A DNA stretch of 64,000 nt from NCBI RefSeq assembly GCF_001905385.1, contig NZ_LIPF01000002.1, positions 124,001-188,000 of the forward strand, written 5' to 3'. Source of the stretch: Streptomyces sp. CB02414 (lineage in GTDB: Bacteria; Actinomycetota; Actinomycetes; Streptomycetales; Streptomycetaceae). The notes below the pieces were generated by a model. The model saw only the letters and a program-made list of their open reading frames with translations. It was not told the origin of the DNA and ran no database searches. Shown piece after piece: positions 30,824-37,528 of this stretch (its first letter is position 1; each line of letters begins with the position of its first letter). The position numbers and the translations under genes are program-made.

Positions 30824-32368
30824 TCAGCCCCGCCGCAGGCGGGAGACCAGACCCCGGTGTGCCCATCCGGTCCTGCGCAGGCCCGTCCAGACGCAGTACG
30901 CGGCGACGGCGACCGCGAGCGCCGCGGCACCGGGTGCGGACGGAACAGCGTTCATCGCGGCGACGCCGAGCACCACGGCGACGAAGCCGTCGAACTGCCA
31001 CGCCACGATCAGCAGGCCGGAGAGGTCGCCGAGCGGTGTGACGACCGGGAGCAGCAACGCGAGCGGCAGGTGCAGCTTCATCTCGCGCAGGAACCTGGCG
31101 CCGAGCACCAGCATCACCGACCCGGCGACGAGGAACACCGTGTCCGGCAGCCGCCCGCCGTACAGCGGCCACCGGGCCGCCACCGCCACTGCGCCGCCCA
31201 GCACGGTCCCGCCCGCCACGGCGACGACGGGCCAGGTCAGCGCCCGGGTGAGCGCCCCGCCCCACCCCTCGCCGAACAGCGGCGCCAGCGTCAACTCGTC
31301 GCGCAGGCCGCGCCATGTCTCGCCCACCCACCCGGACCCCAGGTACAGGCAGACGCAGCCGGCCGTCCACAGCGGCGCGGCGAGGCCGCCGTACGCCCCG
31401 GCCGTGCCGAGCGTCAGCGCGGCTCCGCCCGTCGGCAGGAGCACCAGGGCCGCGCCGGTGCGGCCCGGTGTGCGCAGCGCCCGGACCGCGCCCTGGCGCA
31501 CGTGTCCGCGCAGGCGGCCGTCGGGCCGGAACAGGGCCGAGGTGAGGCCGCGCGGCTCCGGGCGGTAGAGGTCGAGCGCGTGGTGCAGCGTGCCCGTCAG
31601 CACATACGCCTGCGCCTGGGAGGCGCGTGCCGACTCGCGGGCCAGTCTGCTCAGGTCGACCGTGCTGACGGCCCGGAAGGCCGCCCGTCCCACGGCCGCG
31701 GCGGAGGCCGCCGTGACGGCGGCGACGAGCCAGAGAGCACCCGCTCCTTGGGGCACGGGACGGCTCGTCACCGCCACGAGGAGCGCCACGGCGCCCGCGG
31801 CGCAGGCGAGCACGAGGTTGTCGGCGACCGTCCGCACCTGGCCCCACAGCCACACCACCGCGGCGAGGGCACTGAGACCGGCGACGGCCGCCACCACTTG
31901 CAGCGCCGTGTCGAGGCGGCCGAACAGGTCGGTCGTGAGGTAGGCCGCCGTGCAGAGGGCCGACAGCAGGGCGGCGCCCGCGTACAGCAGCCGGCGGCGT
32001 GCGATCGTGCCGAGGTAGCCCGCCGGAGGCAGGTCCGTGGACATGAACACGTGCAGCAGGAAGGGCTGGAGCACCAGCGGCCCCCAGAACCTCGCGGCGA
32101 GCTGGGCCCCCCAGCACACCGTCACCGCGAGCGCGCAGGCCAGGGGCGTCGCGTCGGCGGGTGTCGCCACGGGGACGAGCGCGGGTGAGTCGGCGGCGGC
32201 GACCAGGGCCGGCACCAGGAAGAAGACACCGAAGAGCGCGACGAGGTAGGCGGTGTACGCGCGTCCGCCCGCCGAGGCACGGTCACCGCGGCGGGCGTAC
32301 CGGCGCCACACGACACGGACGCGGTCCCCGACGCCGGCGTCGGCAGTCATGGTGTGCTGCGCCGTCAT
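30824..32368 (-). CDS. Multi-pass membrane protein of an ABC export-like pair (DUF6297-like)
   Basis: A 514-residue integral membrane protein with roughly ten or more hydrophobic segments separated by short Arg-rich loops. A soluble stretch sits near the middle (about residues 245-300, 'ALDLYRPEPRGLTSALFRPDG'). I recognise it only as the kind of ABC-2-like integral component encoded next to a small ATPase; DUF6297 is my best family guess. Its ATG overlaps the ATPase stop by 4 bp, so the two are coupled. Substrate and direction unknown. Confidence 0.75.
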   Translation of the reverse strand: MTAQHTMTADAGVGDRVRVVWRRYARRGDRASAGGRAYTAYLVALFGVFFLVPALVAAADSPALVPVATPADATPLACALAVTVCWGAQLAARFWGPLVLQPFLLHVFMSTDLPPAGYLGTIARRRLLYAGAALLSALCTAAYLTTDLFGRLDTALQVVAAVAGLSALAAVVWLWGQVRTVADNLVLACAAGAVALLVAVTSRPVPQGAGALWLVAAVTAASAAAVGRAAFRAVSTVDLSRLARESARASQAQAYVLTGTLHHALDLYRPEPRGLTSALFRPDGRLRGHVRQGAVRALRTPGRTGAALVLLPTGGAALTLGTAGAYGGLAAPLWTAGCVCLYLGSGWVGETWRGLRDELTLAPLFGEGWGGALTRALTWPVVAVAGGTVLGGAVAVAARWPLYGGRLPDTVFLVAGSVMLVLGARFLREMKLHLPLALLLPVVTPLGDLSGLLIVAWQFDGFVAVVLGVAAMNAVPSAPGAAALAVAVAAYCVWTGLRRTGWAHRGLVSRLRRG

Positions 32369-33000
32369 CCCAGCTCCACGCGGCCGTCGCACGCGTCCAC
32401 CAGGGCCGGTTCGTGGGTGGCGACCAGGAACGCGGTGCCCGCCCCGGCCCGCTCGGCGAGCAGGCCGGCCACCAGCTCGACGCGGTCACCGTCCAGGTGG
32501 CGCTCCGGTTCGTCGAGCAGTACGGCGCCGGCGGGCCGGACGAGGGTCAGCGCGAGGCTGAAGAGCTGGGACTGGCCGGACGAGACCTGGTGGGGGAACC
32601 GTTCCCCCAGCGGGCACAGCCCCATTCGCTCCATGATCCGTCCGGCACCCTCGGTGGTCTCCGCGGAGTTGCCATACCAGGAGGCGGCGACCAGCGTCAC
32701 CTGCTCGCGCAGCGTCATGTCCCGGGCGACCGGGACTGGTTCGACGAGCGAGGCCACGAGCCTGCGGTGCGAAGGCTTCGCCATGTCGGCGGGTTCCCCC
32801 CGGATCGAGCACGTGCCGGCGGTGAGGCTCCGGCTGCCCAGGAAGGCGCGCAGCAGAGTGGTCTTTCCACTCCCGTTACTTCCCGTGACGCACCAGAACT
32901 CGCCCGGCGGCACGTCGAACGTCGTCGGCGCGAGCAGGGTCGTGCCGTCCAGCGCGACCGTCGCACCGTCCGCCGCGAGCACGGGAGCGACCCCGGTCAC
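32365..33000 (-). CDS. ABC transporter ATP-binding protein
   Basis: A 211-residue ATPase with Walker A TGSNGSGKTT, Walker B AVLLDEPERHLDGD and switch His in ATHEP. The signature region reads VSSGQSQ in place of the usual LSGGQ, an unusual but tolerated form, and the Q-loop is short. It is encoded immediately upstream of and overlapping the membrane partner, suggesting a two-component exporter or a membrane-remodelling ABC protein. The start lies 3 bp after the stop of the DHFR-like gene, so these genes may form one operon. Confidence 0.85.
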   Translation of the reverse strand: MTGVAPVLAADGATVALDGTTLLAPTTFDVPPGEFWCVTGSNGSGKTTLLRAFLGSRSLTAGTCSIRGEPADMAKPSHRRLVASLVEPVPVARDMTLREQVTLVAASWYGNSAETTEGAGRIMERMGLCPLGERFPHQVSSGQSQLFSLALTLVRPAGAVLLDEPERHLDGDRVELVAGLLAERAGAGTAFLVATHEPALVDACDGRVELG

Positions 33001-34580: not shown

Positions 34581-35717
34581 TCAGGTACTGCGCCGGGTCA
34601 CGAACTCGGCCAGCGCGAGCAGGCCGCCCGCCGCCTCCGGATCGGGCACCGCGCGGGCCAGTTCCTGCATGGCCCGGGCCATGTGGTCGGCGGCCTGGGC
34701 CTGCGCCCAGTCACGGCCGCCCGCCCGCTCCACGGCCAGGGCGCTGCGCTCCAGGTCCTCCTTGCCCTCGTCGTACGGTGCCGCGTACAGCTCGGCGAGT
34801 TCGGCGGCGGCCGGGGTGCCCGAGGTGAGGGCGGCGACCACCGGAAGCGACTTCTTCCGGGCGGCCAGGTCCGCGCCGGCCGGCTTGCCGGTGCGGCGCG
34901 GGTCGCCCCATATGCCGATGACGTCGTCGATGAGCTGGAACGCCAGCCCGGCCTCCCGGCCGAACGCGTCCAGGGCCTCGACCTCCTCGTCGGCCGCCCC
35001 GGCGTAGAGCGCGCCGACAGCACAGGCGCATCCCAGCAGGGCGCCCGTCTTGGCCTCGGCCATGACGAGCGTCTCCTCGAGAGTGACCTCGTCCGGGGCG
35101 CGCCTCTCCATGGCCGTGTCCGCGTGCTGGCCCTCGCAGAGTTCCATGACGCAGTCGGTGAGCCGGGCGGCGGCCGCCGCCGACGCCGAGTGCGGGTCCA
35201 CGGCGAGCAACCGCAGGGCCAGCGCCTGGAGGGCGTCCCCGGCGAGGATCGCGTCGGCGTCGCCGAAGACGGTCCACGCGGTCGGCCGGTGACGCCGGGT
35301 GCTGTCGCGGTCCATCACGTCGTCGTGCAGCAACGTGAAGTTGTGGACCAGCTCCACCGCCGCCGCGGCCGGCACCGCCGCCGCCCGGGCCGCGGGGCCG
35401 CCGAGGGCGGCGGCCGAGGCGAGGACCAGCGCGGGGCGGATCGCCTTGCCCGCGTTACCGGACGCCGGTGTGCCGTCCGCGTGCTGCCAGCCGAAGTGGT
35501 AGAGCGCGACCCGCCGCATGCCTGCGGGCAGGGTCGCGATGGCGGACCGCAGCCCGGGGTCGACCGACGCCCGGGACTCCCGTAGGAGCACCGCCGCCTC
35601 GTGCCCGTCGGACAAGCCTTCCGGCTCCTCCCCCCGCTGTGTGCCGATGCGCTCGCCCCTTTCCAGCGTTCCGGTGGGCCGGCGCGCTCCACCGGTGCCG
35701 TGCGGAGCCTCCGTCAT
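34581..35717 (-). CDS. Polyprenyl diphosphate synthase, predicted encapsulin cargo
   Basis: A 378-residue trans-prenyltransferase. The first aspartate-rich motif LLHDDVMDRD lies near residue 150 and the second, QLIDDVIG, near 270, with the early RPALVLASAA segment also typical. It condenses allylic diphosphates with isopentenyl diphosphate. Residues 1-55 are a disordered, charged Gly/Arg/Glu-rich extension absent from ordinary family members; in family 2 encapsulin systems such extensions load cargo into the shell. The gene follows the shell gene by about 90 bp. ATG 35717 has GGGAGGCGAG upstream. Product chain length is unknown. Confidence 0.9.
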   Translation of the reverse strand: MTEAPHGTGGARRPTGTLERGERIGTQRGEEPEGLSDGHEAAVLLRESRASVDPGLRSAIATLPAGMRRVALYHFGWQHADGTPASGNAGKAIRPALVLASAAALGGPAARAAAVPAAAAVELVHNFTLLHDDVMDRDSTRRHRPTAWTVFGDADAILAGDALQALALRLLAVDPHSASAAAAARLTDCVMELCEGQHADTAMERRAPDEVTLEETLVMAEAKTGALLGCACAVGALYAGAADEEVEALDAFGREAGLAFQLIDDVIGIWGDPRRTGKPAGADLAARKKSLPVVAALTSGTPAAAELAELYAAPYDEGKEDLERSALAVERAGGRDWAQAQAADHMARAMQELARAVPDPEAAGGLLALAEFVTRRST

Positions 35718-35805
35718 CGACTCGCCTCCCCCCGTGCGCCCGCGACCGTACCCCGGGGGTGTACCCGTCCGGGCGGGCGGGAACACGGCGTTCGGGAGAC
35801 TGGCG

Positions 35806-37212
35806 TCACTGCCAGCGGCCGATCTCGACGTTCTCCAGCACGCCGAGCGCGTCCGGTACGAGGACGGCGGCCGAGTAGTAGGCCGTGACCAGGTACTTGA
35901 TGATGGCCTGCTCGTTGATTCCCATGAACCGCACCGACAGACTCGGCTCGATCTCGTCGGGGATGCCGGTGGCGCGCAGCCCGATCACGCCCTGGTCCTG
36001 CTCGCCCGTACGCATCGCGATGATCGAGGACGTGCGGGCCTCGGTGACCGGGATCTTGTTGCACGGGTAGATCGGCACACCGCGCCAGGTCGGGATGCGG
36101 TTGCCGGCTACGTCGATCGTCTCGGGGACGAGTCCGCGCCGGTTGAACTCGCGGCCGATCGCGGCGATGGCACGCGGGTGGGCGAGGAGCAGCTTGGTGC
36201 CGCGCCGGCGGCTCAGCAGCTCGTCGAGGTCGTCCGGGCCGGGCACGCCGTCGTGCGGCTGGATCCGCTGGTCGTACTCGCAGTTGTGCAGCAGGCCGAA
36301 CTCGCGGTTGTTGATGAGTTCGTGCTCCTGGCGCTCCTTCAACGCCTCGACGGTCAGGCGGATCTGCTGCTCCGTCTGGTTCATCGGCTGGTTGTAGAGG
36401 TCGGCCACGCGCGAGTGGATGCGCAGCACGGTCTGGGCGACGCTCAGCTCGTACTCGCGGGGCCGCGCCTCGTAGTCGACGAAGGTGTGCGGGATGTCCG
36501 GCTCACCGCTGTGGCCGGCGGAGAGGTCGATCGCCTTCTCGCCGTGCCTGTTGGTGGGCTGCTCGGGCAGCGAGCGGCGCTCCTCGAGGTGTGAGCGCAG
36601 GGAGTCCGAGCGCTCCGCGACCTGCTCCACCTCCTGACGCGGCAGCACCAGCACCGTGCAGGCGGTGACCGTACGGGCGGTGTACTCCCAGATGGCGTCC
36701 CCGTCCAGCAGCGCCTCGTCGCCGAAGTAGGCGCCGTCGGCGAGGACGCCGAGCACCGCGTCGTCGCCGTAGGGGCCGGTGCCGACCTTCTCCACCTTGC
36801 CGTGGGCCAGCAGGTACACCTCGTCGGCCTGGGCACCGAACGAGGCGATCACCTCGCCCGGCCCGAACTCCCGCTGCTCGCAGCGCTGCGCGAGCTCCGA
36901 GAGCACCTCCTCGTCCTCGTACGACCGCAGGGCCGGCAGTTCGCCCAGCTCCGCGGGGATGACCTCGACGCGGTCGCCGGTCTTCACGAACGTGACCCGG
37001 CCGTCGCCGACGGCGAAGGTCATGCGCCGGTTCACCCGGTACGTACCGCCCTGGATGTCGACCCAGGGAAGCGTGCGCAGCAGCCAGCGGGAGCTGATCT
37101 CCTGCATCTGAGGAACGGACTTGGTCGTGGTGGCCAGGTTCCGCGCGGCCGCCGTGCCGAGGCTCTGCTGCGGCCTGGTCTGCTCGGTGCGGACCTCTTC
37201 GCCTACCGACAT
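35806..37212 (-). CDS. Family 2B encapsulin shell protein with cyclic-nucleotide-binding domain
   Basis: A 468-residue HK97-fold shell protein of the EshA-like family. An N-terminal arm (to about residue 90) includes '[13 protein letters not shown]'. A cNMP-binding beta-roll at about 100-215 has '[28 protein letters not shown]' and '[30 protein letters not shown]'. The capsid body follows ('[26 protein letters not shown]', '[11 protein letters not shown]') and ends in '[11 protein letters not shown]'. It should self-assemble into a hollow compartment around the adjacent polyprenyl synthase. ATG 37212 follows GGGAGG. The conserved Arg of cNMP sites is not obvious, so nucleotide binding is uncertain. 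Confidence 0.9.
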
Positions 37213-37528
37213 AAGGAATTGCCCTCCCGGTCATGCCGGACGGCTGCGCCCGGCATCGATGTGCGTGGACCAGCCTTCCTCACGGAGCGTGCCGGTGCTA
37301 TTACCCGAAAGAGCGGGAATGGATCACCGTCGGCCGGGGCAGACATGGGAGCTTGTCCGGCGTATCGCCGACTTGTCCGGCGCAGGTCAGAGCCGTTGGC
37401 CGGGATGACCTTGGCCGAAACGGCTCGCACGGGGACCGAACAAGTCGTAGGGAGCAGTCCGTTTCGGTAGAAGCACCGTACGAGGCGGTCGCGCCGGGCG
37501 GTCGTCGCGCAGCGTGAAGGAGTCGGCC
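37213..37528. promoter_or_regulatory. Divergent promoter region upstream of the encapsulin gene
   Basis: A 316-bp interval between the encapsulin and amidase genes. It contains two identical 11-bp direct repeats (CTTGTCCGGCG) at 37352-37362 and 37372-37382, 20 bp apart, and a spaced inverted repeat CCGAAACGG / CCGTTTCGG at 37415-37423 and 37459-37467. Both are candidate operator elements; no clear -10/-35 pair was assigned. Confidence 0.45.

Follow-up and report, generated by a model that had tools for sequence, protein, structure and literature searches.

The closest described relatives of the locus analysed here are the family 2B encapsulin operons with polyprenyl transferase (PT) cargo. 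Within the available text of the survey that describes them (Andreas and Giessen 2021, PMC8346489), 900 polyprenyl transferase operons are counted among 3,523 family 2 systems, with 888 in Actinobacteria, and the cargo proteins carry disordered N-terminal domains of 50-100 residues in which no conserved targeting motif was found. The same text gives GPTGLGT as a cargo motif in terpene cyclases. A further report, in its accessible portion (PMC12407261), lists the PT operon type among two-component systems, of which single-shell forms exist, names terpene cyclases as studied encapsulin cargo, and describes a luminal 'diagnostic motif 2' as a cargo-loading candidate. In S. coelicolor, eshB bears the gene number SCO5249 and its promoter rises in development, as followed by S1 mapping (PMC3878966, available part), and SigH and its anti-sigma factor correspond to SCO5243 and SCO5244 (PMC9739823, available part). 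No experimental study of a PT-type shell was found in the literature searched, which misses most subscription papers and preprints.

The window, a stretch of 64,000 nucleotides from Streptomyces sp. CB02414, contains a shell gene followed by a synthase gene, both read leftward. The open reading frames span 35806-37212 (468 aa) and 34581-35786, the latter with an in-frame ATG at 35717. The synthase is 401 aa long if the GTG at 35786 is used and 378 aa from the ATG, 5' of which lies a plausible ribosome-binding site, GGGGGGAGGCGAG. From this ATG, the gap between the shell gene and the downstream synthase gene is 88 bp. The two genes are as follows.

35806..37212, minus strand: family 2B encapsulin shell protein, eshB-type, 468 aa (NF041163, PF19307 and PF00027, phmmer match to 9bhu)
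34581..35717, minus strand: proposed cargo enzyme of 378 aa, counted from the ATG at 35717, a trans-prenyl diphosphate synthase (NF041169, PF00348, fold matches)

The two leftward genes proposed in the first-pass annotation are borne out by these coordinates. Its overall reading, an encapsulin paired with a prenyl synthase, is right, with both genes above their NCBIfam cut-offs, and is already in print in the available text of the survey (PMC8346489). The pair probably forms a two-gene operon that makes an icosahedral family 2B encapsulin (EshB) enclosing a short-chain trans-prenyl diphosphate synthase, most likely one forming geranylgeranyl diphosphate (GGPP, C20). A promoter and terminator scan of the locus found no sigma-70-type promoter and a single terminator-like site (0.6 expected), positioned on the opposite strand within the shell gene.

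The shell matches the model encap_f2b (NF041163) at 772 bits (cut-off 400, E 1.7e-232). An SrpI-like domain (PF19307, 455.8 bits) occupies residues 216-466, and a cNMP-binding-fold domain (PF00027, 65.9 bits) is found at residues 114-201. Judged by its sequence, the protein is a family 2B encapsulin with an HK97/SrpI-type domain and an internal cNMP-binding-fold domain, confirming the 468-residue shell described at first pass. The nearest solved shells retrieved from the PDB by phmmer are 9bhu (E 1.3e-199), 9bix (E 5.5e-190) and 9bje (E 5.2e-185). The first of these is presumably the S. griseus EshA encapsulin with 2-methylisoborneol synthase, and the other two are taken here to be the S. lydicus two-component 2B shell. 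By analogy with relatives such as 9bhu, the window shell would assemble into an icosahedral particle; the AF2 model of the shell, with a mean pLDDT of 50.6, is too poor to use. Three regions of the shell are considered below.

36577..36942, minus strand: cNMP-binding-fold insertion, residues 91-212, Arg absent from the aligned phosphate-binding column (alignments)
37117..37164, minus strand: shell N-arm, residues 17-32, with strong conservation across the compared PT, MIB and two-shell classes (shell-class comparison)
36091..36120, minus strand: counterpart of the luminal 'diagnostic motif 2' loop, residues 365-374 (correspondence drawn by eye in the PDB alignment)

The synthase scores 487.1 bits against f2_encap_cargo4 (NF041169, family 2 encapsulin nanocompartment cargo protein polyprenyl transferase; cut-off 450, E 2.7e-146) and contains a polyprenyl_synt domain (PF00348), in agreement with the trans-prenyl diphosphate synthase claimed initially. 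The runner-up NCBIfam model, GGPP synthase IdsB, gives 358.9 bits, below its cut-off of 475, and two paralogues of the same genome (L007 and L008) reach 405 and 397 bits against NF041169, under the cut-off. The nearest solved enzyme is 3nf2 (phmmer against the PDB, E 1e-74, 44% identity). The AF2 model of the synthase has a mean pLDDT of 82.9 and resembles 3nf2 in fold (TMt 0.90), as it does the GGPP synthase 1wy0 (TMt 0.88). Two Asp-rich regions are recognized in the catalytic domain.

35310..35324, minus strand: first Asp-rich motif DDVMD, with F127 at -5, a putative GGPP-type pocket (motif reading)
34902..34928, minus strand: second Asp-rich region DDVIGIWGD, with Gly at the third Asp position (motif reading)

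Under the GGPP synthase rule, the Phe at position -5 relative to the first Asp-rich motif points to a C20 product. This Phe is present in all 113 shell-family synthases and also in 18 of 20 paralogues, and the second motif reads DDxxG, the third Asp being replaced, in 112 of the 113, the pattern being unmatched in one. Predicted from the motif and the fold relatives, the product is most likely geranylgeranyl diphosphate; the replaced third Asp weighs against the overall reading. The genome holds six polyprenyl_synt matches, so that the window synthase is one of several in the cell; its role is therefore likely to lie in supplying an isoprenoid pool kept apart, for use in development or secondary metabolism, rather than in housekeeping.

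The first-pass annotation had also placed the terpene partners elsewhere than beside the pair. This holds for the neighbours examined, with an epi-isozizaene synthase (NF045483, 731 bits, locus L014) located about 27 kb off, just past the right end of the window at the equivalent of positions 64467-65060. The ORF beside it reads, by eye, like a cytochrome P450, and the substrate of epi-isozizaene synthase is FPP, not GGPP. On account of the distance, the P450-like neighbour and the substrate, this enzyme was set aside as a partner, and it is probably unrelated to the shell and synthase pair.

Across 150 Streptomyces genomes, an over-cut-off synthase is present in at least 114 and an over-cut-off 2B shell in at least 147. 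A shell lies directly upstream on the same strand in 112 of the 113 over-cut-off synthases inspected (the window included; G112:C40 of the 114, at a contig edge, left out), versus 0 of 20 paralogues, a non-random control of 18 hand-picked from the upper part of the below-cut-off matches listed and two from the window's own genome (1.5 kb flank). The exception is L089, a synthase lacking a shell in its 17-kb locus. Over the 112 linked loci, the shell-to-synthase gap has a median of 110 bp. Among named close relatives, 79 of 80 are linked, and in the remaining one the match begins 331 bases from the contig end. At the level of the order, an over-cut-off synthase is present in at least 145 of 197 genomes, most of them of the same genus, in a genome set overlapping the Streptomyces survey.

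The surrounding genes are conserved as well. Within 82 loci that extend at most 8 kb to either side, where shortfalls include loci that end too early, relatives of the window genes are found for the shell (81), the PLP enzyme (80), the Na+/H+ antiporter (77), the RsbW-like protein (74), the sigma factor (62), the amidase (58), the GNAT protein (50), sodN (43) and the RibD_C-like protein (42). The linkage in 112 of 113 loci, the synteny and the short gap together support a functional pair. In 75 loci, the distances of synthase and shell show a rank correlation of 0.745, the highest of six gene pairs, with 0.717 for the shell and the PLP-enzyme gene, and a partial correlation of 0.437 given two neighbour genes. 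Much of the co-divergence of synthase and shell is common to the neighbouring genes and is partly explained in this way.

Two further observations concern the same region. At 30824-33000 on the minus strand, a 522-aa protein adjoining an ABC ATPase has no Pfam or NCBIfam match and was not found in the 82 wide loci of relatives, perhaps representing a transporter insertion particular to this lineage within conserved surroundings; the ATPase is matched in 22 of these loci at a median identity of 27%. On the plus strand, antisense to the shell gene, positions 36674-37178 match the Rfam family RF02735 (Sernc350), an antisense RNA family from Saccharopolyspora, at 154.8 bits (gathering 50). The match may merely reflect coding similarity, and it suggests that the original Sernc350 antisense RNA lies over an encapsulin gene.

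In the AF2 model of the synthase, residues 1-36 have a pLDDT below 50 and the first helix begins at residue 36, delimiting a disordered arm of about 36 residues. The 55-residue disordered extension reported at first pass is thus retained in its predicted disorder and shortened in its length. Two elements are located in the arm.

35610..35717, minus strand: disordered N-terminal extension of the synthase, residues 1-36 (pLDDT < 50; variable among orthologues)
35640..35663, minus strand: ERGERIGT, residues 19-26, the window version of a short arm motif (pattern search among orthologues)

Among the 113 shell-family synthases, the number of residues before a fixed anchor at the first helix ranges from 10 to 121 (41 in the window; 24 or fewer in 60), and in the 20 paralogues it ranges from 4 to 45 (27 or more in 8), with N-termini assigned by a simple start-codon rule, the best ribosome-binding site, that will be wrong for some relatives. 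This spread, together with the overlap with the paralogues, indicates that arm length marks neither membership of the cargo family nor loading. A conserved loading sequence of 55 residues is ruled out, since both length and sequence of the arm vary among orthologues.

Shorter patterns are shared by part of the family. A [DE]GxEA cap directly preceding the first helix occurs in 74 of the 113 shell-family synthases and in none of the 20 paralogues. A second pattern, [ER]R.{1,3}[IV][GA][TSKAR], with typical forms ERRGPIAT and ERQGPIGT, is carried by 17 of the 53 long arms, where residue shuffling gives a mean of 0.59 and a maximum of 4; shared ancestry inflates the counts of both the arm motif and the cap. 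Both are candidate loading signals, no more. No targeting element spanning the whole synthase family was found in the N-termini of the orthologues, consistent with the available text of PMC8346489. The proposal that the extension acts as a cargo-loading sequence can accordingly be kept only tentatively: its length is unconserved, its motif is confined to part of the family, and it is not limited to shell-linked synthases.

At one shell-linked locus (L126, genome G140), the synthase carries a very long in-frame repeat-like N-terminal region with SEARAE/SLHG-type repeats, extending over roughly 120-220 residues depending on the start. A mimicry of cargo motifs by the shell N-arm segment SLGTAAAR was considered as well (the terpene cyclase motif is GPTGLGT, and the synthase reads IGTQR here), a resemblance too short for a test.

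The variability of the arms bears on an alternative arrangement, with the synthase co-expressed but situated outside the shell, either cytosolic and unbound or at the surface of the shell, for example feeding other enzymes. Such an arrangement would accommodate both the lack of a family-wide targeting element in the N-termini and the 60 synthases with at most 24 residues before the anchor, but it conflicts with the tight linkage of shell and synthase and with the disordered N-termini proposed for loading in other 2B cargo families (PMC8346489, available text), and is considered quite improbable. Enclosure of the synthase within the shell remains the preferred reading, through N-terminal contacts that would tolerate great change in arm length.

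The internal domain of the shell had led the first-pass annotation to suggest a response to a nucleotide ligand. In two kinase alignments, the phosphate-binding Arg column is occupied in the window by W175 (alignment to 3shr) or A173 (alignment to 5ezr). The consensus of 96 PT-linked shells shows no Arg between residues 164 and 179, the first being R180. In the MIB-linked consensus, an Arg stands at 174 and is carried by about half of the 22 shells, indicating that Arg loss in this region is not uniform across 2B shells. According to the accessible portion of PMC12407261, which cites a preprint on this point, cyclic nucleotides are not bound by the 2B domain. A compartment gated by cAMP or cGMP would be in keeping with the membership of the insertion in the CNBD family and with the Arg of some MIB-linked shells, but the Trp or Ala in the column, the Arg-less PT-linked consensus and the statement in PMC12407261 all weigh against it. 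The suggested ligand response is disfavoured, and gating by cyclic nucleotides appears highly improbable.

Upstream of the shell gene, an alignment of relatives reveals a conserved element.

37300..37319, minus strand: TTCCCGCTCTTTCGGGTAAT, a conserved promoter-like element 5' of the shell start (upstream-region alignment and pattern search)

Its core, CTC.T..G.GTAAT, lies about 90 nt from the shell start codon. The element resembles a SigB-type -10 region, and a gene for a SigB/F/G-family sigma factor (TIGR02980) is located 4-5 kb away. Earlier, stricter patterns match 42-46 of 81 linked shells, 0 of 41 2B shells of other kinds (22 linked to MIB, 12 at two-shell loci and 7 other) and 1-2 of four orphan shells, the strictest matching one. 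A looser pattern, set after reading the upstream regions of the four orphans and 19 aligned ones, from the window and 18 named loci, matches 61 of 80 PT-linked shells, none of the 41 others and, having been written with their sequences in view, all four orphans; a second looser pattern matches 47 of 80, 0 of 41 and three of four. By arm class, the element is present at 38 of 40 loci with long-arm synthases and 23 of 40 with short-arm synthases.

The orphan shells come from genomes in which the pair is broken. Among the matches listed, a shell sharing 71-88% identity with that of the window is retained in six of the 36 genomes that lack an over-cut-off synthase, the other shells in the 36 genomes reaching 69% at most; the G010 shell, at 71%, is thus hardly set apart. 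In G141 and G006, the synthase was not found in syntenic 11-kb stretches around the shell, and in G051 and G010 it was not found within 1.5 kb of the shell. Only the ends of the synthase remain in G101, most of the catalytic domain being missing, and in G082 the synthase is split over two frames, which would reflect a broken gene or else an error of assembly. The dN/dS to the nearest linked shell is 0.09 for G141, 0.17 for G006, 0.14 for G101, 0.23 for G051, 0.35 for G010 and 0.11 for G082. Linked shells have a median of 0.13 and a range of 0.06-0.25 (79 nearest pairs with dS > 0.15, a filter below which the G141 pair falls, with dS 0.08). The sequences hint that the shell is worth keeping without a linked synthase; the losses may be young, and the G010 shell may be relaxed.

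These cases bear on the possibility that the shell plays an independent role or houses a second cargo from an unlinked gene, with the synthase as a frequent but dispensable passenger. The persistence of the six shells, the dN/dS of 0.09-0.23 in five of them and the upstream element in orphans, as far as the first patterns and the post-hoc one go, would fit such a role, yet the cases are few (six loci against 112 linked), the low dS of the G141 pair suggests that losses may be recent, the G010 value exceeds the linked range, and the evidence for G051 and G010 covers just the 1.5 kb around the shell. This alternative is held to be unlikely. Given an upstream element of its own, found at none of the other 2B shells sampled, and the survival of the shell beyond the synthase in several species, EshB might hold a second, unlinked cargo or serve as a scaffold. 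In its fullest form, a developmentally or stress-controlled compartment with a second unlinked cargo or scaffold role and, where a synthase is loaded, at least two loading modes, a long arm bearing ER..(P)I[GA]T in some lineages and in others a short one with the [DE]GxEA cap, this extension is distinctly speculative and improbable.

A second 2B shell is encoded in the same genome (G000:C17:223961-226479, loci L002, L016 and L211). Beside it lies a cargo gene for a terpene cyclase (f2_encap_cargo2, 495 bits, cut-off 400), which reads GPTGPGTT at the GPTGLGT-type motif. The two over-cut-off shell genes of the genome lie on different contigs, C12 and C17, and do not form a two-shell operon. PT-linked and MIB-linked shells, compared for 96 of the 112 linked PT shells and 22 MIB shells, the rest lacking the shell start inside the locus, differ at 38 positions, each conserved at about 80% or more within its class. 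The co-occurrence of two shells, each beside a different cargo gene, raises a question of sorting within the cell.

In conclusion, the shell and synthase genes would be co-transcribed, the shell would assemble and be loaded with the synthase, and the substrates and C20 product would cross the shell pores. Expression would be developmental or stress-related, perhaps under the control of the neighbouring SigB/F/G-type sigma factor. As the pair is already described as a predicted encapsulin system and is common in Streptomyces, the finding is largely ordinary; the upstream element, the motif in part of the long arms and the six eshB-like shells without an intact synthase nearby are new here, on computational grounds. 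Encapsulated isoprenoid enzymes would allow bacteria to set apart a reactive precursor pool, and the locus offers handles in the upstream element, the natural synthase losses, the long and short arms, and the two shells with different cargo genes per cell.

Compared with the 2B operons with polyprenyl transferase cargo (PMC8346489, available text), the window locus is alike in its CNBD-fold shell, its adjacent synthase with a disordered N-terminus and its Streptomyces host, and differs in the arm, which at about 36 residues is shorter than the 50-100 described there. The S. coelicolor eshB locus likewise has a SigB/F/G-type sigma factor, an RsbW-like gene and sodN nearby, and from synteny and gene numbers the window shell appears to be orthologous to eshB. 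For the synthase, the S. coelicolor polyprenyl synthetase 3nf2 and the GGPP synthase IdsB family are the best fold and sequence relatives, and the 20 paralogous synthases inspected below the cargo cut-off differ from it in having no shell neighbour. The closest solved shell, presumed S. griseus EshA (9bhu), has a terpene cyclase as cargo, and the MIB-linked class stands apart from the PT-linked class of the window in the 38 shell positions and in the upstream element, found in 0 of 22. In the S. lydicus two-component 2B system, a putative xylulose kinase system in the accessible portion of PMC12407261, the shells are homologous to that of the window, with two shell genes in place of the one at the window locus.
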